NCBI RefSeq assembly: GCF_000380505.1
Contig: NZ_AQYH01000007.1
Span: 248,001-312,000 of the forward strand
DNA from: Kaistia granuli DSM 23481
GTDB lineage: Bacteria; Pseudomonadota; Alphaproteobacteria; Rhizobiales; Kaistiaceae
DNA length: 64,000 bases
Direction: 5' to 3'
Positions 12,583-29,014 of the stretch are shown one piece after another. The notes under the pieces were generated by a model that had not been told where the DNA came from, did not search any database, and saw only the letters and a list, made by a program, of their open reading frames with translations. Numbering within the stretch: the stretch's first letter is position 1; every line of letters starts with the position of its first letter. The position numbers and the translations under genes are program-made.

Positions 12583-13601
12583 TTCAGCGAACCCCCATAG
12601 GGCGAGGCGACGACGAGGCAGCAATTGCCGGGTTTGACGCGGCCGGGTTGGCGGCGGCCGTAGAGGATGCCGTCGGCGGCATAGACGAGTTCCGCCGGCC
12701 TGCGATCCGGATGGGCGAGGAAATGGACGCGGCCGGCCGGCTGGCCCCGCGATACCATCGTGCCGTTCCTGTGGAAAGGCTCGAACACGCCGTCATCGTC
12801 GGAGATGACATAGGCGTCCGAACCCGGCAGCTCGAACAGCCGCGGCTCGGCGCGGGGAGGCGTGGCCATCTCCGGCGGCAGCACGCCGAGATGCGCCAGC
12901 ACGTTGCGCACGCCGCGGCGGCAGATGTCGAGCGCGTCGATCGAGACGGTGCCGCCGCCGGCCATCTCGGTGCCGACAACGGTCAGGCCGGCGCGGGCGG
13001 CGGAGGCGGTCGCGGTGCGGGTGTCGCCGCGATTGTCGATGACGACGACCAGCGGCGCATCGAAGGCGGTGACGGCGGCGACGTTCTTGGCGTGCTGGAC
13101 GGGATCGGCGACGGGTTCGATCACCGAGCTCGGCATCAGGTCGAGCGACGAGCCACCGGAATGCAGGTCGAGGAAGGCATCGCCCATCGGAAACAGCGCG
13201 TCGTTGACGAAGGCGGAGATCTGCTGCGTCGTCGTGCCGTTGAAATTGCCCGGAAAAGTCCGGTTCATGTTGAGGTCGTCGATCGGCGAGGTGCGGCGGG
13301 CGGCGTTGACCGCCGGCAGGTTGATCGCCGGGATGAAGATCAGCCGCCCCGAGACGAGGCCGGGATCCAGATCGCGGATGAGCTCACCGAGCGCAATCGG
13401 TCCCTCATATTCGTCGCCGTGATTGCCGCCTTCGAGGATGACGGTCGGGCCGTCGCCATTCTTGATCACGGCCAGCGGCACGCGGATCACGCCCCAGGCG
13501 TCATCATGGACGGACAGCGGCAGGTTGAAATAGCCGCTCTGCTTGCCGTCCTTGTCGAAGTCGACGGTGCATTGCGCCAGTTGCTTAGCGTTCAGGCCCA
13601 T
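12579..13601 (-). CDS. eutE: Succinylglutamate desuccinylase/aspartoacylase family deacylase (EutE/DoeB-like)
   Basis: The 340-residue zinc carboxypeptidase-fold enzyme hydrolyses an N-acyl amino acid. The zinc site is visible as GGNHGDEYEG (His and Glu) and FLDLHSGG (His); NRTFPGN supplies the conserved Arg. The C-terminal half carries the beta-domain typical of DoeB-like enzymes, which release diaminobutyrate from its N-acetyl form in ectoine breakdown. It is the first gene of a two-gene leftward operon, divergent from the IclR gene and controlled from a region with a perfect 11-bp inverted repeat. The exact substrate is an inference. Confidence 0.78.
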   Translation of the reverse strand: MGLNAKQLAQCTVDFDKDGKQSGYFNLPLSVHDDAWGVIRVPLAVIKNGDGPTVILEGGNHGDEYEGPIALGELIRDLDPGLVSGRLIFIPAINLPAVNAARRTSPIDDLNMNRTFPGNFNGTTTQQISAFVNDALFPMGDAFLDLHSGGSSLDLMPSSVIEPVADPVQHAKNVAAVTAFDAPLVVVIDNRGDTRTATASAARAGLTVVGTEMAGGGTVSIDALDICRRGVRNVLAHLGVLPPEMATPPRAEPRLFELPGSDAYVISDDDGVFEPFHRNGTMVSRGQPAGRVHFLAHPDRRPAELVYAADGILYGRRQPGRVKPGNCCLVVASPYGGSLK

Positions 13602-13671: not shown

Positions 13672-13711
13672 TATCACTGATGATATCAAGAGTTGATATG
13701 TGATATCATCA
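13672..13711. promoter_or_regulatory. Candidate IclR operator, copy A
   Basis: TGATGATATCA (13678-13688) and TGATATCATCA (13701-13711) form a perfect 11-bp inverted repeat with a 12-base spacer, in the 187-base gap between the divergent deacylase and IclR genes. The stretch beginning TATCACTGA at 13672 matches 26 of 34 ungapped positions in the region at 19574. Confidence 0.65.
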
Positions 13712-13788
13712 AGAGGCAGTATCGGCGCAAATGTCGCCTTGCGCCGCCGTGTCGGCGCGGCAATGACGGGCACCAAAGGAGAATCGCT

Positions 13789-14841
13789 ATGACCACAGCC
13801 AAGCGGCCATCCGGCGGGAGCGGCGTCGATAGTCCAAAGCCCGCCCGCAAGACGGCGAAGGCCGAGAGCAGGGCAGCGGCGAAGGGCGCCGACGCAGCGG
13901 AAGCGAAGGTCGCGTCGAAGGCGACCGTCAAATCCCCAGCGAAGCCAGCGGCCAAGCGGCCGGCCAAGGCCGCTGCTGGCAAGGTCTCCGCCACCCGATC
14001 CGCCAAGCCGGTGCTCAGCGACGCGGTCGCCAAGCCCGCTTATAGCGCGCCGGCGCTGGAAAAGGGGCTCGACGTGCTCGAGCTTTTGGCGAGCCTCTCC
14101 GAAGGCGTGACGCCGAGCCAGATCGCCCAGCAGCTCGGGCGTTCGCTGCAGGAGGTCTACCGCGTCGTCGTCGCGCTGGAGCGCCGCGGCTACATCCAGC
14201 GGCCGCCGGGCGAGGAAAGCCTGGTGCTGTCGAGCAAGCTGCACGACCTGTCCTATCGCTATCCGCCGATGCGGCGGCTGGTCGATGCGGCGCGGCCGGT
14301 GTTGAACCGGGTGGCGATCGACGCCTATCAGGCGTTCCACCTGGCGGTGCTGGACGGGCTTTCCATCCGCGTCGTCGCCCAGGTCGACAGCCCGGCGCCG
14401 CTCGGTTTCCGCCTGCGCGTCGGCACGCAGAACCCGGCCATCCGGACCGCGTCCGGCCGTCTGCTGATCGCCTATCAGCCACCGGCGGTGCAGGAATGGC
14501 TGTTCGAGGCGATCGGACAGACCGCGCCGAAGAGCGAGGTCGAGTGGCTGCGCCGACGCGTCGAGGTGGTGCGTTCGGTCGGCTACGAGATGATCGCCGG
14601 CGAGGCGCTCAAGGGCATCACCGATGTCAGCTTCCCGATCCTCGATTCGGAAGGGTTCGCCCCGGCCGTGATCACCATGCCGTTTCTCGCTTCCTCGACC
14701 GAAAAGGTGCCGCTTGACGACGCCAACCGGCGGCTGTTCGAGGCGGCCCAGACGATCACCGGGCTGCTGGGCGGCCAGCTCGCCGAGCCGAAGTTCCCGC
14801 TGGTCGATACCGGCGGTCCCGTCGGCAGCCCCGGCCGCTGA
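13789..14841 (+). CDS. IclR family regulator with a basic, histone-like N-terminal tail
   Basis: The 350-residue protein starts at ATG 13789 with AAAGGAG just upstream. Residues 1 to about 80 are very rich in Lys, Ala and Pro (repeats such as KSPAKPAAKRPAKAAAGK), like histone H1-type tails. The IclR winged helix-turn-helix follows (about 85-145, GVTPSQIAQQLGRSLQEVYRVV), then the GAF-like effector domain (about 160-335). IclR proteins normally have about 250-280 residues, so the tail is an addition. The regulator diverges from the dehydratase/deacylase operon and probably binds the inverted repeat between them. A matching site at 19574 suggests that it also controls the sugar genes on the other side. 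Confidence 0.9.
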   Translation: MTTAKRPSGGSGVDSPKPARKTAKAESRAAAKGADAAEAKVASKATVKSPAKPAAKRPAKAAAGKVSATRSAKPVLSDAVAKPAYSAPALEKGLDVLELLASLSEGVTPSQIAQQLGRSLQEVYRVVVALERRGYIQRPPGEESLVLSSKLHDLSYRYPPMRRLVDAARPVLNRVAIDAYQAFHLAVLDGLSIRVVAQVDSPAPLGFRLRVGTQNPAIRTASGRLLIAYQPPAVQEWLFEAIGQTAPKSEVEWLRRRVEVVRSVGYEMIAGEALKGITDVSFPILDSEGFAPAVITMPFLASSTEKVPLDDANRRLFEAAQTITGLLGGQLAEPKFPLVDTGGPVGSPGR

Positions 14842-14891: not shown

Positions 14892-15755
14892 TCACCGCAC
14901 CGCGCCGGCGATGGCGCCGGACAGGATCTGGCGCTGGAACAGCATGTAGACGAGGATCACCGGCAGCAGGGCGACGATCAGCCCGGCGCTGATCAGCGGG
15001 ATCGAGACGTCGTACTGTCCGGAAAGCAGCGCTACGCCGACCATCAGCGTCTTCTTGTCGGATCCGCCCATGATGACGAGCGGCAAGAGCAGGTCGTTCC
15101 ACATCCAGACGAAGTTCAGGATGGAGAGCGCCGCGATCGCCGGGATCGAGATCGGCAGCAGGATCGAGAACAGGATGCGGATGTCGCCGGCGCCATCGAG
15201 GCGCGCTGCCTCGATCAGCTCGTCCGGAATCGCCCGGAAATAGGCCGACAGCAGATAGGTGCCGAGCGGCAGCCCGAAGGCCGCATAGGCGAAGATCAGG
15301 CCCTGGTAGGTACCGCCGAAGCCGAGGTCGAGGATCGTCTCGTAGAGCGGATAGATGATCACCTGGCTCGGGATCACCAGCATGGCGATGATGAACAGGA
15401 AGATGTAGTTGCCGCCGCGGATCTTCAGCTTGGTGACGGCATAGGCGATGAACAGCGCCGCGACGGTGGAGAGAACAAGCCCGCCCGCCGTGGTGATGAT
15501 GCTGTTGACCAGCAGCCGGCCGACCTGCATGCGCTGGAAGGTCTCGATGTAGTTGTCGAAGGTGATGTCGGTGACGAAGCCGAGCGGATCGGCGGCGAAA
15601 TCGGCTCGGCTTTTCAGCGAGTTGATCACCGTGAAGATCAGCGGATAGAGCGTCACCACGGCGAGCACGACGAGGACGCTCGTCACCAGCCAGCGCGTCA
15701 GCGCGATGCGGACCGAGGAGATCGTCACCTGCGGGGCGGGGGCGGAGGACTTCAT
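14892..15755 (-). CDS. Carbohydrate ABC transporter permease, MalG type
   Basis: The 287-residue inner-membrane permease has six predicted helices and the EAA loop DELIEAARLDGAGDIRILFSILLPIS. The start MKSSAPAPQ at 15755 overlaps the upstream permease stop by ATGA; the longer upstream frame runs through the neighbour and is not coding. It pairs with the MalF-type subunit. It is the last transport gene of an operon without an ATPase gene, and it converges on the IclR gene. Confidence 0.93.
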   Translation of the reverse strand: MKSSAPAPQVTISSVRIALTRWLVTSVLVVLAVVTLYPLIFTVINSLKSRADFAADPLGFVTDITFDNYIETFQRMQVGRLLVNSIITTAGGLVLSTVAALFIAYAVTKLKIRGGNYIFLFIIAMLVIPSQVIIYPLYETILDLGFGGTYQGLIFAYAAFGLPLGTYLLSAYFRAIPDELIEAARLDGAGDIRILFSILLPISIPAIAALSILNFVWMWNDLLLPLVIMGGSDKKTLMVGVALLSGQYDVSIPLISAGLIVALLPVILVYMLFQRQILSGAIAGAVR

Positions 15756-16681
15756 CGGGGCTTGCTCCCTTCCACATACATGCGACGGACGACGAAGGCG
15801 GAGACGATGGCGACGAACACGAACAGCGCCATGCCGATCGCCGCGCCCTTGCCGCGATCCATGAACTGGAAGGTTGTCGTGAAGACGAGGAATTCCGGCA
15901 GCACGGTCGCCGTGCCCGGCCCGCCCTTGGTCAGCGCGTAGATCAGCGGGAACATCCAGATCAGGATGCCGGAGGTGCACAGCACGGCCCAGTAGCCGAT
16001 CACCGATTTGAGCAGCGGCATGATGATGTGGAAGAGCAGTTGCCAGAAGCCGGCGCCGTCGAGTTTGGCCGCCTCCACCACTTCCTCGGAGACGGTCGAG
16101 AGGCCGGAGAGATAGGTCAGCACGCCGAGGCCGAAGAAGCTCCAGAGCGCGACGGCGGTCAGCGCCAGCAGCGCGCTGGTCGGGCCGTTCAGCCATTCGA
16201 TGGCGAGCGGCGCCAGGCCGATGGCACGCAGCACCGCATTGAGCGGGCCGTCCGGCGCCAGGATCTGGCGGAACATGATGCCGACGACGATCGGCGCGAT
16301 CATGTAGGGCAGGAAGAAGGCGGCGCGGAAGAACTTCCAGCCCGGCGTCTTCTGGAACAGGAGGAAGGCCAGCACCAGCGGCAGCACGATCCAGATCGGT
16401 AGCGTCGCGAAGGCGATCAGCGCATTGCGGAACGAATCCGCGACGGCAGGGTCGGCCACCATGGCGCGGTAATTGGCTAGGCCGGCGAAGGTCGGGTCCT
16501 CGAAGCCGCGCGTCTCCTGCAGGCTGAGCCAGATCGTCCGCACGAGCGGCACCAGCTTGAACAGGATGGCGAGCGCCAGTCCCGGCAGCACGAACAGTAT
16601 GGCGATGAGCATGTCGCGCCGGATGAAGGGCCTCGCGCGCGCGTCGCCCGCGCCTCTCGCCAGATTGGCCAGCTCAGCCAT
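15752..16681 (-). CDS. Sugar ABC transporter permease, MalF type
   Basis: The 309-residue permease has an N-terminal cytoplasmic stretch of about 30 residues, then six membrane segments and the EAA loop EVVEAAKLDGAGFWQLLFHIIMPLLK. ATG 16681 is preceded by GCAGGAG and fits the family length; the extended frame upstream overlaps the binding-protein gene and is rejected. It forms the channel together with the MalG-type protein. Confidence 0.93.
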   Translation of the reverse strand: MAELANLARGAGDARARPFIRRDMLIAILFVLPGLALAILFKLVPLVRTIWLSLQETRGFEDPTFAGLANYRAMVADPAVADSFRNALIAFATLPIWIVLPLVLAFLLFQKTPGWKFFRAAFFLPYMIAPIVVGIMFRQILAPDGPLNAVLRAIGLAPLAIEWLNGPTSALLALTAVALWSFFGLGVLTYLSGLSTVSEEVVEAAKLDGAGFWQLLFHIIMPLLKSVIGYWAVLCTSGILIWMFPLIYALTKGGPGTATVLPEFLVFTTTFQFMDRGKGAAIGMALFVFVAIVSAFVVRRMYVEGSKPR

Positions 16682-16708
16682 CGAAACTCCTGCCTGTTGC
16701 GGGTTGGG

Positions 16709-16735
16709 GCGGGGAGGCCTCGTCGGCCTCCCCGC
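16709..16735 (-). promoter_or_regulatory. Intercistronic hairpin after the binding-protein gene
   Basis: A perfect 11-bp stem (GCGGGGAGGCC with GGCCTCCCCGC, loop TCGTC) fills the 76-base gap between the binding-protein stop and the MalF-type permease start. Confidence 0.65.
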
Positions 16736-16757
16736 GATCTTGTCGCGAGCGCGGTTG

Positions 16758-18071
16758 TTACTGGCGCTTGCTCGGGCTCTGCTCGAGCGCGGTCTGCATC
16801 CGCGCCGTCCAGTCCTCGATCGACAGGCGGCCGAGCGAGACTTCCTGCCAGCCGCGGGCGAGCGCATCGGCTTCCTGGCCGGAGAGCAGCACGCCGGCAT
16901 GCAGCGTCGGCTTCTTGATGATCTCGAGGATCTGGGTGAGCGCCTCGGACTTCGGCAGGATCGACGGGTCGACATTCTTGTTGAGCGAGATGCCGCCGGC
17001 GACCTTGGTCAGAAGCTCGGCATTCTCCTTGCCGGCCATGAACTTCACGAACTGGAAGGCGGCGTCCTTCTTGTCGCTCCAGGCGGAGACGCCGAAGACC
17101 GAGCTTTCGATGCCGGAGAAGCTGCCGGCGAGCGGTGCGTCGGCGACGATGGTCGGCCAGCGCATGGCGCCGAGATTCTCGTCGCCGAGGATCTTGCCGA
17201 AGGCGGCCCAGTTGGCGGCGTCCGAGATGATGGTGCCGGCGAAGGCGGCGTTGCCGCTCTGGAAAATGTCGGCGCCGTCCGGCAGCATGGTGATCGAGGG
17301 GGCGCTGGAATTGGTCCAGCCCTTCTCGGTGATCGAGGCGAGGCCCTTGAGGACGTTGACCATCTTCGGGTCGGTCCAGGGCATCTTGCCGGCGAGCATG
17401 GCGCGCATGTCGTCTTCGGTCAGGTAGTTGCGCGCGACCTCGGGGAAGTTCCAGTAGGCCGGGAAGATGCCGGACAGGCCGATGGCGAGGCAGGTCTTGC
17501 CGGCGGCCTTCACCTTCTCGCAAGCGGCGTTCATCTCGTCCCAGGTCTTGGGCGGGTTGGCGGCGTCGAGGCCGGCCTCCGTCAGCACCTTCTTGTTGTA
17601 GTACATGACGTTGCCCTGGTAGCCGAAGGGCAGGCCGTAGCAGGCTTGGCTGGTGTCGAAGTTCAGGCAGCCGCCGCTATAGGTAATCAGGTCCTTGCCG
17701 GCCTCCAGAACTTCCGGCGGCAGCTGCTCATAGGCGCGGCGGCGATCGAACAGTTCGAGGCCAGCATTGTTCTCCATCACGTCCGGGCCGCTCTTGGTCG
17801 TGATGTAGGGGCCCTGGACTTCCGGATAGCGGTCGAACGGCACGGTCTCGAGCTCGACCTTGATGGTCGGGTTCTGCTTCTCGAACTCGGCGACGAGCGC
17901 CTTCCAGTAGTCGGCGCCGCCCGGCTCCCAGTTCAGCACGCGGATGGTCGTGACGTCCTGCGCCAGGGCTGCCTGGCCGCCGAGCGCGGTCATCGAGGCG
18001 AAGGCGAGGCCGGCGAGCATGCCGCGGACGGAGCGGCCCGAGCGGCCGTTCCCGAATGGTGTTGGCTTCAT
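16758..18071 (-). CDS. Extracellular sugar-binding protein, family 1
   Basis: The 437-residue periplasmic protein begins with a long signal peptide (about 37 residues, cleavage after ALAQ). It has the family 1 sugar-binding layout: TTIRVLNWEPGGADYWKALV, EFEKQNPTIKVELETVPFD, the PFGYQGNVMYYNKKVL hinge strand and NAAFAGTIISDAANWA. It starts at ATG 18071; the longer frame adds an Arg-rich stretch with no support. It delivers solute to the MalF/MalG pair downstream. An oxidoreductase gene lies upstream on the same strand, 377 bases away, with two tandem palindromes near 18340 that are candidate control sites. The sugar is unknown. Confidence 0.92.
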   Translation of the reverse strand: MKPTPFGNGRSGRSVRGMLAGLAFASMTALGGQAALAQDVTTIRVLNWEPGGADYWKALVAEFEKQNPTIKVELETVPFDRYPEVQGPYITTKSGPDVMENNAGLELFDRRRAYEQLPPEVLEAGKDLITYSGGCLNFDTSQACYGLPFGYQGNVMYYNKKVLTEAGLDAANPPKTWDEMNAACEKVKAAGKTCLAIGLSGIFPAYWNFPEVARNYLTEDDMRAMLAGKMPWTDPKMVNVLKGLASITEKGWTNSSAPSITMLPDGADIFQSGNAAFAGTIISDAANWAAFGKILGDENLGAMRWPTIVADAPLAGSFSGIESSVFGVSAWSDKKDAAFQFVKFMAGKENAELLTKVAGGISLNKNVDPSILPKSEALTQILEIIKKPTLHAGVLLSGQEADALARGWQEVSLGRLSIEDWTARMQTALEQSPSKRQ

Positions 18072-18448
18072 TGTGTGTCCCTTTCCGTCAGGTTTCTGTC
18101 GCACTGCTTCAGGAATTCGGTCCGGTCCGGCCCTGTCGCGGTCGACCGTCGATCGGGTTCGTCGAAAGGCCGCTCGACGCGTCGCCATCGCTGCCGGCAG
18201 CAAGCGCCGGGCAGCCGAACGAAGGCGCGATACGAGCGGTCAGCATCCCTGTCACCCCGCCATGGCCGCCGCCCTTGAGACGGGTTTTGTGGGCGGCCAT
18301 GCGTCAACGCTAGCACAGCGATTTTTCTATTGAAATAGAGATTTCTTATAAGAAACCATTCCGATTGGAGCCGGCAGACGGACGGCAAAGTTCGGGCCGC
18401 CGCATCGGATGCGGCAGCCTAAGTGTTTCAGCTCTCAGATGATTTTGA
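18072..18448. promoter_or_regulatory. Leader and promoter region of the second sugar importer
   Basis: This 377-base gap has no credible gene. Its only standout content is an AT-rich block near 18320-18360 holding two adjacent palindromes, about 260-290 bases upstream of the binding-protein start and about 100 bases past the oxidoreductase stop. Confidence 0.5.
18326..18355. promoter_or_regulatory. Two tandem AT-rich palindromes
   Basis: TCTATTGAAATAGA (18326-18339, 6+2+6) and TTTCTTATAAGAAA (18342-18355, perfect 7+7) lie side by side with centres 16 bases apart. They are candidate operators for the importer at 14892-18071. No matching regulator can be named, and the sequence differs from the IclR-linked motif. 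Confidence 0.5.
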
Positions 18449-19519
18449 TCAGGTGGTCTTCGGCACGACGCCGCCGAGACGGCTCGACGCCAGGCAGGCA
18501 TCGACGAGTGCCATGGTGCGGATCGAGTCGTGCACATCCGTGTCGAGCACGCTGTCCTCGCCCGCCACATAGCGCTGCAGATTGGACATGACGGCGCCGA
18601 ATGCGTCCGGCACGCGCTCCCCGACCAGCGGGATCTCCGTCCAATCGCTGCCCTCGACGATGACCTCGAGCTTTTCCGGCACCGGCTTCAGGTAGTCGTG
18701 CAGATAGCCGAGATCGAGATGGGCGCAGCCCTTGGTGCCTTCGACGCGGATCGTTGCGTCGATGTGCTTGGGGCCATAATTGTAGGTGTGGTTGAGCGAC
18801 AGGTTGCAGCGGGCGCGCGCACCATAGTCGAGGATGATGCTGGAGCGCGCATCCTTGAGGTCGGGATAGCGCGGATGCGGCACCGTCTTGGCGTAGACGC
18901 TTTCCGGTTCGCCGAGGATCGAACGAATCCAGTCAAGATAATGGATCGAGTGCAGTGGGATCTCGACGGCGTCGAGATGCGGGATGAACGACCACATCTC
19001 CCACGGCATGTAGATGGCGAGCCGCACTTCGAGCTCGACGACGTCGCCGAGCAGGCCGCGCCGGACGGCGTCGCGGATCGCCAGCATGGACGGCGTGTAG
19101 CGGAGCTGGAAATTGGTCGCCGCGGTGATCTTGCGCGCGTCGATCGCCTCGACGATTTGGCGCGCTGCCGAGAGATTGGCGCCGAGCGGCTTCTGGATCA
19201 GCGCGGCGCTGCCGACCGGCAGTTGCTCGACCGCGCCGAGGATGGCGGCCGGCGGCAGAGCGAGGTCGAACACGGTGTCGTCGGTACGCGCGGCGATCGC
19301 CGCGGCCAGACTTTCATGCACGACGGGAATATCGAACTCGGCGGCGACGGCGCGCGCCTTATCTAGGTCGAGATCGAAGATGCCGGCGACCGGCAGGCCG
19401 ATCTTGCGATAGGCGGGCAGATGGGCGCTGGTGACGATGTCACCGGCGCCGATGATCGTGATCGGGCGCGGCCGGGTCGGGAGGGGCCAGGTCTGTTCGA
19501 GTTCCAAGCCAGACGTCAT
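18449..19519 (-). CDS. Gfo/Idh/MocA family oxidoreductase
   Basis: The 356-residue protein has an N-terminal Rossmann fold (TIIGAGDIVTSAHLPAYRKI), the family's EKP-type motif as IQKPLGANL, and a C-terminal alpha/beta domain with the HSIHYLDWIRSILGEPESVYA segment. These NAD(P)-dependent enzymes oxidise sugars, inositols or amino sugars. ATG 19519 is preceded by GGGAGGG; an upstream ATG at 19579 would extend into the operator region and is less likely. It diverges from a glycosidase-like gene and lies upstream of the importer operon, so it probably processes the imported sugar. Substrate unknown. Confidence 0.88.
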   Translation of the reverse strand: MTSGLELEQTWPLPTRPRPITIIGAGDIVTSAHLPAYRKIGLPVAGIFDLDLDKARAVAAEFDIPVVHESLAAAIAARTDDTVFDLALPPAAILGAVEQLPVGSAALIQKPLGANLSAARQIVEAIDARKITAATNFQLRYTPSMLAIRDAVRRGLLGDVVELEVRLAIYMPWEMWSFIPHLDAVEIPLHSIHYLDWIRSILGEPESVYAKTVPHPRYPDLKDARSSIILDYGARARCNLSLNHTYNYGPKHIDATIRVEGTKGCAHLDLGYLHDYLKPVPEKLEVIVEGSDWTEIPLVGERVPDAFGAVMSNLQRYVAGEDSVLDTDVHDSIRTMALVDACLASSRLGGVVPKTT

Positions 19520-19573
19520 GCTCGCCCTCCCAGGCGCCGCCGAACGGGGCCGGCGGGCTTCATTCCAATGATT

Positions 19574-19612
19574 TATCACTGACGATAGTCGACGTTGATA
19601 TTTGATACTGGA
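19574..19612. promoter_or_regulatory. Candidate IclR operator, copy B
   Basis: The stretch starts TATCACTGA, continues with GATA and GTTGATAT, and ends TGATA at exactly the spacing seen at 13672 (26 of 34 bases identical without gaps). It lies between the divergent oxidoreductase and glycosidase-like genes. Its inverted-repeat symmetry is poorer than copy A's. Confidence 0.55.
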
Positions 19613-19684: not shown

Positions 19685-21361
19685 ATGGCTGGAGCGAATG
19701 AAGTCCGGATCGCGGGGCGGGTCGCACTGGAGCATGGCGAGCGCCATGTGCATGCGGCGCGGCGGCTCCGGGCAGCCTTTCCGATGCTGGAATTCGTGCC
19801 GCTCGCTGCGGCTTCCACGAGCCTTCCGGTTGTCCGCCTGGTCGAGGATCGCTCGCTCGCCGAGGGTGCCTTCACGCTGACGGTCAAGCCGCGTAACGGC
19901 TCCGACGCCGAGATCGTCATCGCGGGTGGCCCCTTCTCCGGCGTCATCTACGGCGCCGAGGAGCTGATCGCGCGCGCCCGCGTGGCAGATGGCGCCGTGC
20001 AGGTTCCAGCCGGTGAGCGTCGTGTGGCGCCTGGCCTCGCCTATCGCACCTTCTGGACCTGGGACCATTCGACCAACTGGGAATTGTCGCAGGTCGGCCA
20101 TCAGGAGATCGGCGTCTTCAATCCCTATGGCAAGCCGCCGTCCGGCTTCCTCGGCGACTATACGCGCTTGGTCGATTTCGCCAGCCGCAACCGCATTCCG
20201 TCGGTCGTCATCTACGGCTTCCTGCGCAATACGCATGGCGGCATCGAGGCAGCGCAGGAACTCTGCCGCTATGCGACCGAGCGCGGCGTGCGCATCGTTC
20301 CCGGCATCGCCATCGGCTCCTATGGCGGCGTCTACTGGGAGGGCGACCATCCCTACAATCTCGCCACATGGCTGAAGAAGAACCCGCAGCATGCCGCCAG
20401 CATGGAGAAGGGCGTCGGCTTCCAGATCGCCGACCTCGACTTCCCGCTCAATTTCCCGCGCTCCGACTACACCATGAGCGCGTGCCCGAGCGCGCCGGAG
20501 ACGATGGACTGGATGGAGGAGGCGGTCTCCTGGCTCGCCGACACCTTCGAGATCGGTGGCGTCAACATCGAGAGCGGCGACTATGGCGTCTGCGGCTGCG
20601 CGCGCTGCGTCGCCCGTCGCAACAACGAGGCCGAGGCCGCCCGCCGCGTCGACGATCACGGCGATTCATGGTCGCACACCGACATGGCCGAGAATTTCCC
20701 GCGCCTTTATCGCGCGGCGAAGGCAAAGAAGCCGGACGCCTGGATCTACAGCGAGCTGCAGTGGGACAATCTGTTCGATCCGGTCGCCCATGACGCCCAG
20801 CGCAGCATGCCGAAGGGCGCGATCTACCAGCACACCACCAACCGCACCTTCTGGGGCCGGCTGCAGAAGGAACTGACCCGGGCTGATGTCGAGAAGCTGC
20901 CGACGCAGCCGAACGTGCTGCGCTGCCAGTTCGCCTGCCAGTGGAACGGCGACCGGCGCACCGAGCGCTATGCCTTCAATGGCCGCGTCTTCGCCGACAT
21001 GAACAAGTTCTGCGCCGATGTCGGCATGCAGGGCCTGACCGTTTGGGGCGAGCCGTCGCCCTATCATGCGACGGTCGAGCTCTCCTATCTCGCCTTCGCC
21101 CGCTTCGGCTACGAGCCGACGCTCTCCTGGGACCGCTTCCTCGCCGAGGACGCGGCGCCGCTGCTCGGCAGTCAGGCCGCGGCCGAACGCTTTATTGAGA
21201 TTGCCGAGGAGCTAGACGCCAATATCGAACTGCCGGTCGAGCGGCTGCGCGCGCTGCAGGGCGAGGCGCGCGAAGCCTCGCGCCAGAACGACGACGAGGT
21301 GTCGCGCCGCTGGCTGAGCCTGGAAGACCAGATCGCCCGCCGCGCCTATATGGGCCGGTAG
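19685..21361 (+). CDS. Putative glycoside hydrolase-like protein of unknown specificity
   Basis: The 558-residue protein starts at ATG 19685 behind GAGGAGGATG. It has no signal peptide. Residues 10 to about 110 look like the alpha/beta N-terminal domain found before GH20 or GH67 barrels (ending in the GVIYGAEELI type of segment). A barrel-like region follows, with GIEAAQELCRYATERGVRIVPGIAIGSY cut here into GIEAAQELCRYATERG and VRIVPGIAIGSYGG, a Cys-rich CGCARCVAR segment near residue 305, and acidic residues in NIESGDYGVC and SELQWDN. I cannot name its family or catalytic residues. It diverges from a sugar oxidoreductase and shares the operator motif with the IclR locus, so a role in breaking down the imported glycoside or glycuronide is inferred. 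Confidence 0.75.
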   Translation: MAGANEVRIAGRVALEHGERHVHAARRLRAAFPMLEFVPLAAASTSLPVVRLVEDRSLAEGAFTLTVKPRNGSDAEIVIAGGPFSGVIYGAEELIARARVADGAVQVPAGERRVAPGLAYRTFWTWDHSTNWELSQVGHQEIGVFNPYGKPPSGFLGDYTRLVDFASRNRIPSVVIYGFLRNTHGGIEAAQELCRYATERGVRIVPGIAIGSYGGVYWEGDHPYNLATWLKKNPQHAASMEKGVGFQIADLDFPLNFPRSDYTMSACPSAPETMDWMEEAVSWLADTFEIGGVNIESGDYGVCGCARCVARRNNEAEAARRVDDHGDSWSHTDMAENFPRLYRAAKAKKPDAWIYSELQWDNLFDPVAHDAQRSMPKGAIYQHTTNRTFWGRLQKELTRADVEKLPTQPNVLRCQFACQWNGDRRTERYAFNGRVFADMNKFCADVGMQGLTVWGEPSPYHATVELSYLAFARFGYEPTLSWDRFLAEDAAPLLGSQAAAERFIEIAEELDANIELPVERLRALQGEAREASRQNDDEVSRRWLSLEDQIARRAYMGR

Positions 21362-21519: not shown

Positions 21520-22890
21520 CTATGCGACGCGCTGCTTGGCCGTGCCGCGCGCCCATTCCGGCAGCCATTCGCCATGCGCCGCCAGCAAATCGTCGACCAG
21601 GTGCCAGATCTGGTCGAGGTCGAGCTCGGCCGCCGTGTGCGGGTCCATCATCGCGGCGTGGTAGATGTGCTCGCGGTTCTCCGTCAGCAGCGCCTTCACC
21701 GTCAGTTCCTGCACGTTGATGTTGGTGCGCATCAGCGCGGTCAGCTGCGGCGGCAGCTCGCCGATATAGGTCGGCTGGATCCCCGAGGCGTCGACCAGGC
21801 AGGGCACTTCCGCCGCGCAATCGGCCGGCAGCGAAGGGATGCAGCCATTGTTGCGGACGTTGCCGTAGATCACCGACGGCTCGCCGGTCCAGATCGAGTT
21901 GATGATCTCGGAGGCGTATTCCTTGCTCTGCGAGACCTCGATGCGGTCGGCGGTGCGGTATTCCTCCGCCTGGTTCTTCCAGCGCGCGATCTGCTCGATG
22001 CAGCGCTTGGGATATTCGTCGAGCGGGATGCCGAACTTCTCGATCAGGTCCTCGCGGCCTTCCTTGATGAAATAGGGCGTGTACTCGGCGAAATGCTCCG
22101 AGCTCTCGGTCACGAAATAGCCGAGCCGCGTCAGCATCTCGTAGCGCACCTTGTTGGGGCAGCGCGGGTTCCAGCCGGGTTTTGGCGCGCGGCCTTCGCG
22201 GTAGCCGCGGACGAGGTCGGGGTAGAGATCGCGGTACGAGCCGTCGGCCTGGCGGTGCTCGAACTTCAGGTAGAACGCCATGTGGTTGATGCCGGCGGAA
22301 CGATAGCGGATTTCCTCGTAGGGAATGTCGAGGTCGTGCGCCAGTTCCATCGCCGTGCCCTGGACGGAGTGGCAAAGGCCGACCTGCTTGATCGTCGGGT
22401 ATTTCGCCGTGATCGACCAGGTGTTGATCGCCATCGGGTTCACATATTGCAGCATCACGGCGTCCGGGCAGATGGCGAGCATGTCCTCGCAGATCTTCCA
22501 GAGATGCGGCACGGTGCGGAGGCCGCGCATGATGCCGCCGACGCCGAGCGTGTCGGCGATGGTCTGGCGCAGGCCGTAGCGCTTCGGCACCTCGAAATCG
22601 GTGATCGTGCAGGGGTCGTAGCCGCCGATCTGGAAGGCGACGACGACGAAGTTTGCACCCTGGAGCGCCTTCTTCTGATCCGTGTAGGTTTCGACCTTGG
22701 CGGGAACGTCGAGCGTGGAGGCGATCTTGCGGACGACGATGGCGCTTTCTTCGAGGCGCTGCGGGTTGATGTCCATCAGCGCGATCGTCGCGCCGGCAAG
22801 GGCCGGACGCTGCAGCACGTCGCCGACGATGTTCTTCATGAACACGGTCGAGCCGGCGCCGATGAAGGTGATCCTGGGATTGGCAGTCAT
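21520..22890 (-). CDS. Family 4 glycoside hydrolase (alpha-galactosidase/alpha-glucosidase type)
   Basis: The 456-residue cytoplasmic GH4 enzyme uses NAD+ and a divalent metal for an oxidation-elimination mechanism. The NAD-binding FIGAGSTVFMKNIVGD lies at the N-terminus. The metal-site cysteine and histidine are in GLCHSVQG, the NPMAIN loop follows the nucleotide site, and GINHMAF carries a second histidine. It is the last gene of the agp/mel-type operon and a paralogue of the GH4 gene at 29180-30655, so the locus has two cytoplasmic glycosidases, possibly for different linkages or chain ends. The stop is followed by a terminator. Confidence 0.9.
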   Translation of the reverse strand: MTANPRITFIGAGSTVFMKNIVGDVLQRPALAGATIALMDINPQRLEESAIVVRKIASTLDVPAKVETYTDQKKALQGANFVVVAFQIGGYDPCTITDFEVPKRYGLRQTIADTLGVGGIMRGLRTVPHLWKICEDMLAICPDAVMLQYVNPMAINTWSITAKYPTIKQVGLCHSVQGTAMELAHDLDIPYEEIRYRSAGINHMAFYLKFEHRQADGSYRDLYPDLVRGYREGRAPKPGWNPRCPNKVRYEMLTRLGYFVTESSEHFAEYTPYFIKEGREDLIEKFGIPLDEYPKRCIEQIARWKNQAEEYRTADRIEVSQSKEYASEIINSIWTGEPSVIYGNVRNNGCIPSLPADCAAEVPCLVDASGIQPTYIGELPPQLTALMRTNINVQELTVKALLTENREHIYHAAMMDPHTAAELDLDQIWHLVDDLLAAHGEWLPEWARGTAKQRVA

Positions 22891-22913: not shown

Positions 22914-24581
<1,668 letters not shown>

Positions 24582-24595
24582 GCTCGATCCGCCGT

Positions 24596-25750
24596 TCAAT
24601 AAGGGTCGATCGCGTCGCGCAGACCATCGCCGAGCGCGTTGAACGCGAAGACGGTGATCAGCACGAAGACGACGGGGGAGAGGATCCACGGATAGGAGCC
24701 GATCACCGAGAAGGCGCCGGTATCCTGCAGCATCAGGCCCCAGGAGATCAGCGGCGGCTTCACGGCGAAGCCGAGGAATCCGAGGAAGGATTCGAGCAGC
24801 ACGATGGTCGGGATGGCAAGCGTCACGCCGACGATCACATGGCTCATCACATTGGGCAGGATGTGGCGGAAGATGATGCGGCCGTCGCCGGCGCCCACCG
24901 CCATGGCGGCGCGCACATATTCGATCCTGGCCAGCGCCAGCGTCTTGCCGCGCACCTCGCGCGACAGCTGCGCCCAGCCGAGCGCCGCCATCACGCCGAT
25001 GACGAAGGCAATGAACACGTTCGAAGGCGCGGTGATCGGGATCAACGAGGTCAGCGCGAGGTAGAGCGGCAATTGCGGGAAGGCGAGGACGAGATCGACG
25101 AAGCGCTGCACCCAGGCGTCGATCCGGCCGCCCAGATAGCCGGAGGTGATGCCGACCGTGGTGCCGACCGTCGTCGTGATCATGACGACGATCAGCGCGA
25201 TGGTGAGCGAGATCCGCGATCCGACGATGCCGCGGGAAAGAATGTCGCGACCGAACTTGTCGGTACCGAGCAGATGGATCGGCGCGCCGTCGCGCGAGCC
25301 GAACAGGTGGATATTGCTCGGGATCAGCCAGAGCAGCTTGTACGGATAGCCGCGCACGAACAGAGCCAGCTCGTGCGGGTTTTCCAGATCGGGGCCGTTC
25401 ATCGGCTGGAACGTTACCGGGTCGAGCTCGTCGGTCTCGACGATCGGATAGATGCGCGGGATGAAGGTGAACGAACCGTCGGCCTTGAAGAAGGAGATGT
25501 GGTCTGGCGGCGCGAAGCCGATGCCGTTGGCGCGCGGATCGACGGGCGCGAAGAAGTCGGCGAACAGCGCCATGACCAGCAGGCCGATGACCATGACGAG
25601 GCCGATCATGCCCATGACCGAGCGGCGGAAGCGCCGCCAGACCAGGGCGAAATAGCCTTCATTGCCATGGGCGAAGCGGGCATTGGGAACGAGCGGTGCG
25701 GCCGGATGGGCGGGCGGCAGCGTCGAGACGGAATCGGAGCGATCGGTCAT
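24596..25750 (-). CDS. agpC: ABC transporter permease, DppC/OppC type (AgpC-like)
   Basis: The 384-residue inner-membrane permease has an N-terminal OppC-type helix (about 48-70), then a long periplasmic insertion (about 75-165) and the five-helix transport domain. The ATPase-contact loop is typical: EYVRAAMAVGAGDGRIIFRHILPN. Start MTDRSDSVS at 25750 overlaps the upstream permease stop by ATGA. It is the partner of the DppB-type subunit in the alpha-galactoside-type importer. Confidence 0.92.
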   Translation of the reverse strand: MTDRSDSVSTLPPAHPAAPLVPNARFAHGNEGYFALVWRRFRRSVMGMIGLVMVIGLLVMALFADFFAPVDPRANGIGFAPPDHISFFKADGSFTFIPRIYPIVETDELDPVTFQPMNGPDLENPHELALFVRGYPYKLLWLIPSNIHLFGSRDGAPIHLLGTDKFGRDILSRGIVGSRISLTIALIVVMITTTVGTTVGITSGYLGGRIDAWVQRFVDLVLAFPQLPLYLALTSLIPITAPSNVFIAFVIGVMAALGWAQLSREVRGKTLALARIEYVRAAMAVGAGDGRIIFRHILPNVMSHVIVGVTLAIPTIVLLESFLGFLGFAVKPPLISWGLMLQDTGAFSVIGSYPWILSPVVFVLITVFAFNALGDGLRDAIDPY

Positions 25751-26757
25751 GAATTGCCTCCACCCAGCCGGACGCGCGGATCGAGCAGCGCCAGCAGCAT
25801 GTCGGCGATGATGTTGCCGATGATCAGGGTTGTCGCGAGCACCAGCATGAAGGTCGCGGTGACATAGACGTCGCCGACGGCCATCGAGCCGACGATGGCG
25901 GGACCGACGGTGGCGAGCGAGAAGACGATCGCCACCTCGATCTCGCCGGTCAGCATGTAGGGCAGGACGACGCCCTGATACATGACGAGCGGGTGCAGCG
26001 CGTTCGGCACGGCGTGGCGCATGATCACCTGCGATTCCGGCAGGCCTTTCGCACGCGCCGTCTCGACATACTGGGCGTTGAGCGTATCGAGCAGGTTGCC
26101 GCGCATGACGCGCATGTTGTAGGCGAGGCCGCCGAAGGTGGCGATCGCCACCACGGGCCAGATATGCTTCACCAGGTCGACGAACTTTGCCCAGGACCAG
26201 GGCGCGCCGCCATATTGCGGCGAGAAGAAGCTGCCGATCTCCTGCACGTTCAGTTTGAACGCCAGCAGGTAGACGATGATGATCGCGATCAGGAAGCGCG
26301 GCACCGTCATGCCGAGGAACGACACGAAGGAGAGCGCCGTGTCGATCCAGCTGTACTGGCGGGTCGCGGCGATGATGCCGAAGGCGATGCCGAACATCGA
26401 GGCCAGCACGTGGCAGGTCAGCGCCAGCAGCAGCGTGCGCGGCAGTCGCTCGGCCACCACCGTGGAAACAGGCTTGTTGTAGAAGTAGCTGTCGCCAAAA
26501 TCGAAGCGGGTGACGATCCCCCAGATCCAGTTGAAGTACTGGATGATGATCGGATCGTTGAGCCCATGTGCCTGGCGGTAGGCATCGGCCTGCGCCTCGG
26601 CGACAGCAGCGGAAGCGCCGCCCTGGTTCATGAGCTGGGCGCGGATGAAATCGCCATAGTCGCCGGGCGGCGCCTGGATGATGGCGAAGGTGACGATGCT
26701 CAGGATGAGCAGCACCGGTATCGCCGAGAGGATCCGCATCGTCAGGAAACGTAGCAT
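25747..26757 (-). CDS. agpB: ABC transporter permease, DppB/OppB type (AgpB-like)
   Basis: The 336-residue permease starts with the typical first helix (LTMRILSAIPVLLILSIVTF) and has six membrane segments. The EAA loop reads QYVETARAKGLPESQVIMRHAVPNAL. It heterodimerises with the DppC-type subunit. It is separated from the binding-protein gene by a 166-base gap with a strong hairpin, while the genes downstream are tightly coupled. Confidence 0.92.
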   Translation of the reverse strand: MLRFLTMRILSAIPVLLILSIVTFAIIQAPPGDYGDFIRAQLMNQGGASAAVAEAQADAYRQAHGLNDPIIIQYFNWIWGIVTRFDFGDSYFYNKPVSTVVAERLPRTLLLALTCHVLASMFGIAFGIIAATRQYSWIDTALSFVSFLGMTVPRFLIAIIIVYLLAFKLNVQEIGSFFSPQYGGAPWSWAKFVDLVKHIWPVVAIATFGGLAYNMRVMRGNLLDTLNAQYVETARAKGLPESQVIMRHAVPNALHPLVMYQGVVLPYMLTGEIEVAIVFSLATVGPAIVGSMAVGDVYVTATFMLVLATTLIIGNIIADMLLALLDPRVRLGGGNS

Positions 26758-26874
26758 CGGGCAGCAGGTCCTTGCGTTGGCTCTTCGAGGGCGGCGCGCT
26801 CGCGGGAGCCGCCGCCCTGTCGTTCCGTCGTGCCCGCTTGGCGCGGGACCGGACGCCGTCTCGGTCCCGTCGTT

Positions 26875-26900
26875 CCGGCCAGGGCGTCAACCCTGGCCGG
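26875..26900 (-). promoter_or_regulatory. Intercistronic hairpin after the agpA-like gene
   Basis: A perfect 10-bp stem (CCGGCCAGGG with CCCTGGCCGG, loop CGTCAA) lies 23 bases beyond the binding-protein stop in the leftward transcript and before the permease genes. Confidence 0.65.
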
Positions 26901-26923
26901 TTTCGACGGGGACCGGGCGAAGA

Positions 26924-29014
26924 TCAGCCCTTGATCGGGCCGCCCTTGGCGCCGGGTGCGCTCGGCAAGGTCTCCGGGAAGAGCTCGTAATTGCCCTGCT
27001 GGTCGGCCGGCACGAACACCCGCTCGCGGATGATGCTGTCCTCGGCCCAGTTGAACAGGTTGATCGGAACTCCCTTCGGGATGTTGGCGAAGCGCTTGTT
27101 GATGATCAGGGCACCCGGATACTGGGTCAGGCCGATGCCGTAGACGTTGTCGGTGTAGATCTTCTGGAACGTCTTCATCAGTTCCTTGCGCTCGGCATTG
27201 TCGCTCGAGGCAATGAACTTGTTGACGACATCGACCAACTCCTGCTCGAACGGCAGCAGATCGACCTTGTCGTCCTTGCCGGCGCGGTGGAACCAGCTGG
27301 TCTTCGGACCGACCGGGGCCAGGTTGACGGTCTTCTGCACGACGGAGGTCAGGTCTTCCTGGTTGCGGAAAATCAGCCAGTCGAACTGGCCGCCCTGCTG
27401 CAGCGCGTCGCGCTGCTTGCCCTCGACCTGGTTCAGCAGGACGCGGATGCCGAGCGGCTCCATCATGGCGACGACACCGTCGGCCAGGCTCTTGTCGGTC
27501 TGGTAGTCGGAATTGACCAGCAGGGTGACTTCGACATTCTTGCCGCCCGCCGTTCCGGCCGGGAAGTTGACGAGGCCGTCGCCGTCCGTATCGGTCAGAC
27601 CGGCCAGCGCGAGCTCGGCCTTGGCGCCTTCGAGGTCGAAGGGATAGTAGGCGGTCGATTCCTTGTCGTAATAGGTGGTGCCGGAATAGATGCCGCCCGG
27701 ATAGATGGTCGTGAACGGACCCTTGACCAGCGATTCACCCAGCCGCTTGCGGTCGATCGCCGAGGTGACGGCCTTGCGGAAGTGCTCGTTGCGGTTCAGC
27801 TCGCGCACCGCCTGGCCGCGCTCGTCCGGTTCGCCCCAGCCATTGGCCGAGAGGTTCGGGTAGAGCGAGTAGCCGATGATCCGGGGCCCGAATTCGAGGC
27901 GGGCCGGGGCGTCGGGGCTGGCCGAGCGCTTCAGCGCCTCGACGAAGCTCTCCGGCTGCTCGAGATTGGAGAAGTCAGCCGATCCGGCCACCGTCTGCAC
28001 GTCGCGGTCGGCCCAGGTCGAGAGCTTGTAGTGCATCTCGTTCAGGTAGGGCAGCTGGTTGCCGGCCTCGTCGACCTTCCAATAGTAGGGATTGCGGCGC
28101 AGCACGATGATGTCGTCCGCGCGATACTCGACCGGGGCCCAGGCGCCCATCACCGGGATGTTCATGTATTCCGGCGGGAAGGCGTTCTTGTACTGCTCGT
28201 AGGTGTTCTTCGAATATTTCGGATGCTGCGGCTTCAGGATGTGCGCCGGGCCGGGGCAGAACGTGCCATAGGCCATCTGATAGAGATACTGCTTCGGGAA
28301 GGCCTCCTTGAAGGTCCAGATCAGCGTGTAGTCGCCCTCGGCGGTGAGGGTCGTGCCATCACCGAACGAGCCGGGCGCGGCGCCGTTCAGCGGCGTGACA
28401 TTCGGATCGTTTACGTTGTCTTCCCAGTAGAAGATCGCGTCGGCGGTGGTGAAGGGCTGGCCGTCCGACCATTTTGCCCCTTCGATCAGGTGCATGGTCA
28501 GGGTGTGGCCGTCTTCCGACCATTCCCAGCTCTTGGCGAGGTTTGGCAGCGGCTGCAGCTCGTCGGCCTTGATCTGGAACAGCGGACCCGAGCGCGTCAG
28601 GCATTCCGACATGCCGATATCGATGCCGCCCCAGCCCTGGGTCTGGCCGGCAGTATAGTTCCAGCCTTCCGGTCGGCCACCGATGACGTGGCGGATCGTG
28701 TCGCCATAGACGCCGATGCCGTCGACGGTGTTGCCCTTCTTGTAGACCATCGGCTCCTTGGGGAGGCGGTCCTTGACGGCGGGCAGCTTGCCGGTCGCGA
28801 CGAAGTTCTTCGTGACCCAGTCGGGCTCGTGATATTCGGGCAGCGCCTTGAATTCGAGGATGTCGGCGGCGCCGACATAGTTGATCTGGCCCTGGGCATC
28901 GAATTTCGGCGGATCGGGCGGCGCGACCGGCGGCTTCACCTGGGCGAGCGCCGCCGTGACGGAAACGCCGAGCAGCAGGCTGGCTGCGCTGACGGCCAAT
29001 ACGGACTTCTTCAT
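26924..29014 (-). CDS. agpA: ABC transporter family 5 substrate-binding protein (AgpA-like)
   Basis: The 696-residue periplasmic protein has a 24-residue signal peptide (ending TAALAQ). Its length, well over the roughly 530 residues of peptide-binding members, matches the rhizobial alpha-galactoside protein AgpA, as I recall that family. Family 5 features include the SWEWSEDGHTLTMHLIEGAK segment, KWSDGQPFTTADAIFYWED and FRKAVTSAIDRKRLGESL. Flanking GH4 glycosidases and the divergent AraC gene reproduce the agp/mel arrangement needed for melibiose and raffinose use in Sinorhizobium. The substrate is therefore probably an alpha-galactoside, but this is inferred from context. Confidence 0.88.
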   Translation of the reverse strand: MKKSVLAVSAASLLLGVSVTAALAQVKPPVAPPDPPKFDAQGQINYVGAADILEFKALPEYHEPDWVTKNFVATGKLPAVKDRLPKEPMVYKKGNTVDGIGVYGDTIRHVIGGRPEGWNYTAGQTQGWGGIDIGMSECLTRSGPLFQIKADELQPLPNLAKSWEWSEDGHTLTMHLIEGAKWSDGQPFTTADAIFYWEDNVNDPNVTPLNGAAPGSFGDGTTLTAEGDYTLIWTFKEAFPKQYLYQMAYGTFCPGPAHILKPQHPKYSKNTYEQYKNAFPPEYMNIPVMGAWAPVEYRADDIIVLRRNPYYWKVDEAGNQLPYLNEMHYKLSTWADRDVQTVAGSADFSNLEQPESFVEALKRSASPDAPARLEFGPRIIGYSLYPNLSANGWGEPDERGQAVRELNRNEHFRKAVTSAIDRKRLGESLVKGPFTTIYPGGIYSGTTYYDKESTAYYPFDLEGAKAELALAGLTDTDGDGLVNFPAGTAGGKNVEVTLLVNSDYQTDKSLADGVVAMMEPLGIRVLLNQVEGKQRDALQQGGQFDWLIFRNQEDLTSVVQKTVNLAPVGPKTSWFHRAGKDDKVDLLPFEQELVDVVNKFIASSDNAERKELMKTFQKIYTDNVYGIGLTQYPGALIINKRFANIPKGVPINLFNWAEDSIIRERVFVPADQQGNYELFPETLPSAPGAKGGPIKG

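Follow-up and report, generated by a model that had tools for sequence, protein, structure and literature searches.

What kind of enzyme is encoded at positions 19685–21361 of the 64,000-nucleotide stretch of Kaistia granuli DSM 23481 presented here (the window; contig NZ_AQYH01000007.1, positions 248,001 to 312,000), and in what pathway might it act? An earlier note, made from the letters alone, had described a cytoplasmic glycosidase-like protein that could be placed in no glycoside hydrolase (GH) family and that, together with a divergent oxidoreductase and a MalFG importer, might define an undescribed pathway for a glycoside or glycuronide. In the present analysis, the protein is found to belong to a conserved glycosidase-like family that no curated model covers, and it is most likely a cytoplasmic exo-glycosidase, a proposal in which the conserved family and the predicted fold are shown and activity, location and substrate are inferred. 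In many hosts it may start an oxidative, non-phosphorylating amino-sugar pathway; we put the probability of this reading at roughly 0.45, with all steps of the pathway drawn from family membership and gene neighbourhood.

The open reading frame (ORF) consists of 558 codons and a terminal stop on the forward strand, and its frame is open already from 19595. A good ribosome site, gaggaggatgacggg, lies upstream of the ATG and relatives are encoded at 54 loci, so that the ORF is a real gene, beyond chance. No signal peptide is visible by eye at the N-terminus (MAGANEVRIAGRV...), as the earlier note had stated, and the other elements that it listed are likewise present: the length of 558 residues, a CGCARC segment at residues 303–308, a divergent Gfo/Idh oxidoreductase and an importer with two permeases and a binding protein. 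The 54 loci, which belong to alphaproteobacteria, Microbacteriaceae and Chloroflexota, were collected by a scan that detects close relatives only, and the true spread of the family may therefore be wider. The nearest named relatives are those of K. defluvii (93% identity), K. adipata (92%) and K. terrae (92%), and the gene is present in nine of 14 Kaistia genomes, counting the source genome (4.77 Mb). Outside Kaistia its occurrence is patchy: it was found in the source genome and one other in a sample of 398 genomes of the phylum, and in the source genome only in a sample of 385 from the class, apart from a weak match (26%) interrupted by two stops, and a plasmid collection held no relative at E ≤ 0.01. 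The window protein and 45 of the 54 loci (Pseudomonadota, Actinomycetota and Chloroflexota; 56–93% identical to the window protein) were aligned in 46 rows (alignment A1), with a mean column identity of 71% and 131 invariant columns, among them C303, C305 and C308 of the CGCARC segment; nine loci were left out (L035, L036, L041, L048, L049, L050, L052, L054 and L056), most of them partial and L048 full-length.

Taken alone, the window protein has no match in Pfam at E ≤ 0.1, in NCBIfam at E ≤ 0.01 or among the natural chains of the Protein Data Bank (PDB) at E ≤ 1, where the one entry matched is a designed protein, at 0.64; the judgement that it is glycosidase-like and belongs to no curated GH family thus holds. 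A literature search by function words, not by accession, found no paper on it. The profile of the 46 rows matches solved GH20 chains (GH20 Nag2) at 1.6e-4 over profile positions 17–198, and the GH20b front domain PF02838 is matched at E ≤ 1 in 23 of the 46 members (best 1.7e-5), the window protein itself not being among them. At the same threshold the GH20 catalytic domain PF00728 is absent from the ten Pfam families matched by the 46 members, the GH84 domain PF07555 (NAGidase) and the GH67 Pfam domains are matched by no member, the GH163/DUF4838 domain PF16126 is matched by two (best E 0.23), and none of the 45 aligned relatives matches a Pfam glycosidase core. PF07555 was also not found in the source genome, in a search in which the control gave no match either. 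The family was then compared segment by segment with profiles of control sequences (two for GH20, three for GH67, nine for GH84 and one for DUF4838) and with 12 column shuffles. Residues 1–125 scored 36.4 against GH20 (shuffle maximum 19.8) and 24.9 against GH67 (16.6), in agreement with the GH20/GH67-like front domain noticed earlier; residues 110–260 exceeded the shuffles for GH20 and GH84 (24.8 versus 19.2) and slightly for DUF4838 (20.4 versus 18.9), and residues 425–558 did so for GH67 (28.6 versus 18.1) and slightly for GH84 (18.1 versus 17.2). For segments 265–340 and 340–430, which hold barrel strands 4–7, none of the four families rose above the shuffles. Over the full length, with 30 shuffles, GH20 (33.3 versus 26.2) and GH67 (30.9 versus 25.4) exceeded the shuffle maximum, and GH84 (24.7 versus 26.7; one GH84 control, L067, may include an untrimmed out-of-gene leader) and DUF4838 (16.4 versus 27.4) stayed below it.

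The AlphaFold model of the 558-residue protein (mean pLDDT 86.8, pTM 0.89) bears out the barrel-like features of the earlier description, with a (β/α)8 barrel whose eight strands lie at residues 120–126, 173–177, 203–209, 292–296, 353–358, 380–385, 410–414 and 450–454; loops 129–147 and 420–424 have pLDDT below 50, though they are largely conserved. The full-length model is closest to GH84 (2w66, Z 22.3, 4.1 Å over 414 residues), and GH20 heads its Foldseek list (5bxr, E 3.0e-15, TM 0.51). With GH84 (O-GlcNAcase/NAGidase) the protein shares the front domain, the barrel and the helical tail, the first 45 listed full-length matches having Z 20.2–22.3 over 386–433 residues, whereas the window family differs in having no PF07555 match, no invariant adjacent acid pair and a full-length profile score not above the shuffles. 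When the barrel was modelled alone (pLDDT 80.8), its nearest matches were tied, namely GH20 (6yhh, Z 19.8, 3.8 Å over 281 residues), GH84 (5diy, Z 19.4, 3.0 Å over 262), Cwp19 (5oq2, Z 19.1, 4.0 Å over 293) and PgaB (4p7l, Z 19.1, 4.0 Å over 292), and its Foldseek list includes α-L-fucosidase and amylases. Neither GH67 nor GH163 appears in the 50 fold matches listed for the full-length model or the barrel, which does not exclude either family. Fold alone is no proof of function.

The active-site motifs of these families do not carry over. GH20 enzymes have an adjacent Asp–Glu pair at the end of strand 4, GH84 enzymes have an Asp–Asp pair, and the SEGQPG segment of GH67 carries the catalytic acid. 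In the window protein strand 4, as positioned from the predicted strands, ends in NIESGDYGVCGC, in which E296 and D299 are invariant and non-adjacent; among the 15 invariant acids of the 46 rows no two are adjacent, and both the DE pair of GH20 and the DD pair of GH84 are therefore absent, so that the N-acetyl-assisted mechanism of these families cannot be assumed. GH20 β-hexosaminidases resemble the family in the front domain, PF02838 being matched at E ≤ 1 in half of the members, and give the highest profile score, but the GGDE of both GH20 controls is replaced by NIESGDYG in the window protein, and PF00728 is missing. GH67 α-glucuronidases are alike in the front domain and in residues 425–558, both scoring above shuffles, but SEGQPG and EFQIT of the three GH67 controls are missing from the window protein and no GH67 Pfam domain is matched. 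Membership in GH67, and with it the glycuronide substrate suggested earlier, was rejected on these grounds. E296 and D299 are candidate acids and may be catalytic; together with W124 to W132, E357, W454 and E456 they form a cluster of invariant acids and aromatics after the barrel strands.

Neighbours were tallied within 10 kb of the glycosidase-like gene in 56 sources (the 54 related loci, locus L058 and the window), counting five classes: Gfo/Idh oxidoreductase, deacylase, pyridoxal-phosphate (PLP) enzyme, mutarotase and lactonase. The flanks reach at least 5 kb on both sides in 32 sources and are shorter than 3 kb on one side in 24, where absences accordingly mean little; the pairs L035/L056 and L050/L052 each look like one gene split in one metagenome-assembled genome and were tallied separately. 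Gaps are distances between alignments with unchecked starts, and the gene calls of the relatives are mechanical (GC3-based). A Gfo/Idh enzyme is found in 28/56 sources (23 of the window type and five of another type), an N-acyl-amino-acid deacylase in 27 (AstE/AspA in 22, M20 in five), a PLP enzyme in 24 (Ser/Thr-dehydratase-like in 19, class V in five), a sugar mutarotase in 22 (RhaM in 16, FucU in eight, two with both) and a fuconolactonase-like lactonase in 20; RidA occurs in eight and an IclR regulator in 15. At least three of the five classes are present in 27 sources, and 24 of the 32 with long flanks have at least one class and eight have none. The window-type Gfo/Idh gene always adjoins the glycosidase-like gene, with an aligned gap of 59–211 bp (17 divergent and six co-directional), and in ten loci the lactonase lies directly downstream and co-directional, its alignment starting 9–45 bp on. 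In L036 a single ORF (1–2364) joins the glycosidase-like protein to an Amidohydro_2 domain (residues 510–785), which is closest to L-fucono-1,5-lactonase (119.8 bits, cut-off 400); L036 is one short metagenomic contig, and the fusion could reflect a misassembly. Other families take the deacylase and PLP roles in five Microbacteriaceae, where Gfo and lactonase are represented by distant homologs.

These partners would fit together with a glycosidase if the sugar had an acetamido group at C2, since such a sugar, once oxidised, is an N-acetyl α-amino β-hydroxy acid, the substrate type of deacylases and dehydratases of these kinds. In the proposed pathway, the protein would be an exo-glycosidase that shares the fold superfamily of GH20, GH84 and GH67 and represents a family not yet described; it would cut a small glycoside taken up by the neighbouring ATP-binding cassette (ABC) importer and release a 2-acetamido sugar. 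A RhaM- or FucU-type mutarotase, encoded in relatives, would set the anomer, the Gfo/Idh enzyme would oxidise C1 to give a lactone, and an amidohydrolase lactonase, also encoded in relatives, would open it; the AstE/AspA enzyme would then take acetate off the resulting N-acetyl amino acid, and the Ser/Thr-dehydratase-like PLP enzyme, assisted by RidA in relatives, would eliminate water and ammonia to yield a 2-keto-3-deoxy-aldonate. The undescribed catabolic pathway of the earlier note is plausible. The recurring deacylase, dehydratase-like enzyme, lactonase and mutarotase indicate that the sugar is of the fucose type or an amino sugar with an N-acetyl group, in place of the glycuronide, which is unsupported.

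The identity of the sugar can be addressed only speculatively. Proteins of L-fucose or L-rhamnose pathways are the closest matches of the lactonase, the mutarotases and Gfo, and also of an FAH hydrolase present in two relatives; the deacylase and dehydratase, for their part, look like L-amino-acid enzymes. For these reasons a 6-deoxy-L-sugar such as N-acetyl-L-fucosamine is our best single guess, itself at long odds. That the protein is the founding member of a new GH family, serving an oxidative route from a 2-acetamido-2,6-dideoxy-L-sugar of the N-acetyl-L-fucosamine type to 2-keto-3-deoxy-L-fuconate, is a correspondingly doubtful proposal. The FAH hydrolase adjoins the gene in L040 and L005, with 2,4-didehydro-3-deoxy-L-rhamnonate hydrolase as the best model (240 and 227 bits, cut-off 500); in L040, where its nearest solved chain is 8gsr (3.9e-57), the gene is followed by FAH and an SDR. 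Among the NCBIfam matches listed for SDR neighbours none is above its cut-off, and the solved chains for one are unspecific.

The same resemblances would suit an L-fucosidase or other 6-deoxyhexosidase that frees L-fucose for Gfo, lactonase, L-fuconate dehydratase (FucD), SDR and FAH, the deacylase and dehydratase serving the aglycone or being unrelated. This is rather unlikely, although Gfo is about 50% identical to that of a Sinorhizobium meliloti cluster in which L-fuconate dehydratase and rhamnose mutarotase are annotated, the best matches of lactonase, FucU and FAH agree with it (below their cut-offs), and a different contig of the source genome encodes a protein matching FucD at 78%. In the 55 loci and the window nothing matches FucD (at 60% coverage and E ≤ 1e-15), and the deacylase (27/56) and PLP enzyme (24/56) occur with much the same regularity as the sugar enzymes and give way to other families in Microbacteriaceae, which makes them unlikely bystanders.

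Several observations weigh against the amino-sugar pathway. No adjacent acid pair is conserved, as described above. None of the five partner classes is found in 21/56 sources, eight of them with flanks of 8.8 kb or more to either side, so that the link to these classes is not obligate, and in the window no match to a lactonase, a mutarotase or RidA was obtained. Identity thresholds for the partners were fixed after the hits had been seen, that for RhaM being low (28%). Lactonases (48–120 bits, cut-off 400) and FucU (84, cut-off 141) fall below the equivalog cut-offs, as do AstE, the dehydratase and FAH, so that the substrates named for all of these are tentative. A ribokinase-like gene, for which the proposed route has no need, lies nearby in 7/56 sources, and the one tested (L041) passes the NCBIfam ribokinase cut-off (305.3 versus 299.65). 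In a whole-genome search of 27 hosts, a full-length match of at least 42% to the Gfo type was obtained in four, the next being at 38%, and two of the four are L010's own neighbour and contig L056 of the L035 genome; Gfo was accordingly rejected as an obligate partner, and the tie to the divergent oxidoreductase suggested earlier is borne out by the adjacency in 23/56 sources. Finally, a Mesorhizobium plasmid (L076:4582–12871) carries IclR, lactonase, AstE/AspA and dehydratase genes (46–68% identical in the best rows) beside an ABC importer, with neither a glycosidase-like protein nor Gfo annotated in the 17 kb shown.

Two further explanations bear on these points. The barrel could be that of a lyase, a phosphorylase or a binding protein, with partners varying by genome; this would accord with the 21 sources devoid of the five classes, with strands 4–7 that match none of the four profiles and with the want of a transferable catalytic motif, but it is very unlikely, given that invariant acids and aromatics gather after the barrel strands as a glycosidase would show. 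Alternatively, the substrate could be a glycopeptide fragment in the form of an O-glycosylated N-acyl serine or threonine, from which the protein frees the sugar and the deacylase the amino acid, to be degraded by the dehydratase and RidA. The closest full-length fold is GH84, a family including O-GlcNAcases, the dehydratase-like enzyme falls in the Ser/Thr dehydratase group and RidA is near in 8/56 sources; lactonase and Gfo would, however, serve the sugar half only, yet the Mesorhizobium plasmid joins lactonase with deacylase and dehydratase without the glycosidase-like protein, and we consider this explanation unlikely. The amino-sugar pathway remains our preferred reading.

The history of the locus concerns the same module. 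When the window is compared with K. hirudinis (L047), identity is 81% for both Gfo and AstE but 65% for the glycosidase-like protein, and in a tree of the 46 rows the window copy groups with rows mostly labelled lone (support 98/95), L047 lying elsewhere. In the window's Kaistia group the glycosidase-like gene thus seems to have been replaced in place, and such a swap would suggest that this position is important for the module. The module label changes six times on this tree, below all 500 shuffles, a result that near-copies alone could cause; the labels were set by the analyst, and short-flank rows may be mislabelled lone.

Features of the window at and around the glycosidase-like gene, with the evidence for each
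Feature	Position	Strand	Evidence
Glycosidase-like protein P0001, 558 residues: GH20b/GH67N-like front domain ~1–115, (β/α)8 barrel ~116–480, C-terminal helices ~482–558	19685–21361	+	Translation, AlphaFold models, profile segments, 54 related loci
End of barrel strand 4 and following loop, residues 294–308, NIESGDYGVCGCARC; invariant E296, D299, C303, C305, C308	20564–20608	+	Invariant columns of 46 rows; strand 292–296 in model
Gfo/Idh/MocA oxidoreductase, divergent neighbour, likely start ATG near 19519; proposed sugar C1 dehydrogenase	18449–19579	−	Pfam PF22725, PF02894, PF01408 over cut-off
Extracellular solute-binding protein of importer	16758–18203	−	Pfam SBP_bac_8, SBP_bac_1; relatives in 10/54 loci
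MalF/UgpA-type permease	15752–16975	−	Pfam BPD_transp_1; NCBIfam UgpA-like below cut-off
MalG-type permease; mechanical ORF start probably too early, Pfam domain at residues 245–423	14892–16196	−	Pfam BPD_transp_1
IclR-type regulator	13693–14841	+	Pfam IclR_C, HTH_IclR; in 15/56 sources
AstE/AspA-type deacylase, DoeB-like; proposed 2-acetamido-aldonate deacetylase	12579–13601	−	Pfam PF24827 2.7e-37
Ser/Thr-dehydratase-like PLP enzyme; proposed 2-amino-aldonate dehydratase	11644–12624	−	NCBIfam serine/threonine dehydratase 292.4 bits (cut-off 331); serine racemase 5cvc 1.6e-58
GH4 family glycosidase, convergent with the 558-residue gene	21520–22890	−	

The deacylase of the window reaches 299.6 bits with the NCBIfam DoeB model (cut-off 402.7), and its nearest solved chains are 3cdx, named succinylglutamate desuccinylase/aspartoacylase (1.9e-85), and DoeB 6twm (1.6e-70). 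The convergent GH4 gene, which the earlier note had left unmentioned, was rejected as a part of the system, with matches in only 4/54 loci, all close and Kaistia-like. A second GH4 glycosidase is encoded at 29180–30655 on the reverse strand, and the two GH4 genes flank an Opp-type importer block (22914–29014). Elsewhere in the family, a FucU-type mutarotase and a ribokinase-like gene lie immediately downstream of the glycosidase-like gene at L006:11744–13150 and L052:777–2169, and homologs of E. coli SgcQ (47%) and SgcX (36%) with an FGGY kinase lie downstream of it at L035:1425–4819. SgcQ or SgcX homologs occur near the gene in 4/56 sources; the link to E. coli sgc led to no known substrate, as far as a listing of papers goes.

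If the proposed pathway is correct, there would be a dedicated route for breaking down a class of bacterial surface sugars, running through a glycosidase family overlooked by current annotation. It would also hint that catabolism of oxidised amino sugars was assembled repeatedly, each time from its own deacylase and PLP enzyme families, and the few proteins needed would suffice for a cascade reconstituted in one tube.

Two known systems invite comparison. The nearest plasmid relatives of the window Gfo are about 49% identical, one of them lying in the S. meliloti pSymB cluster (CP140883, L078), which shares with the window set Gfo/Idh (about 50%), IclR (34–39%) and lactonase (28–33%, or 39% for the L036 domain). 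It differs in that dehydration is annotated to FucD and that no glycosidase-like protein, AstE/AspA, M20 or Ser/Thr dehydratase is annotated. Within this cluster (L078:511–13522), Gfo/Idh and rhamnose mutarotase genes occur with L-fuconate dehydratase, a polysaccharide deacetylase is also annotated, and the Gfo enzyme has no NCBIfam match at E ≤ 1e-15.

The second system is the ong pathway of chitin oxidation in Pseudoalteromonas, which comprises the glycosidase OngA, the deacetylase OngB, the deaminase OngC, the RidA protein OngD and KdgK (PMC9537276) and deacetylates and deaminates an oxidised amino sugar (PMC9537276, PMC12017989). A cytoplasmic hexosaminidase of this kind, of GlcNAc/GalNAc type and acting on ordinary D-sugars such as chitin-type oligomers with the same oxidative tail, would be consistent with the many GH20, GH84 and PgaB chains among the best solved barrel matches and with a Rhizobium plasmid on which a relative of the deacylase–dehydratase pair lies about 8 kb from annotated nag-type genes for GlcNAc-6-P deacetylase and GlcN-6-P deaminase. 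It is nevertheless quite unlikely for the window protein, in which the DE and DD pairs are absent; moreover, C2 of glucosaminate is D-configured. The deacylase and dehydratase are L-amino-acid-like, whereas OngB is described as D-aminoacylase-like (PMC12017989). In the preferred amino-sugar pathway, the order of chemistry would be the same as in the ong pathway, from glycosidase through N-deacetylase, PLP deaminase and RidA to a PfkB-type kinase in some relatives of the window gene. The ong system differs in that OngA is predicted to be periplasmic and in the type of OngB, the deacylase of the window family being AstE/AspA or M20, whereas the set of the window family has an additional dehydrogenase and lactonase, and its glycosidase belongs to no curated family.

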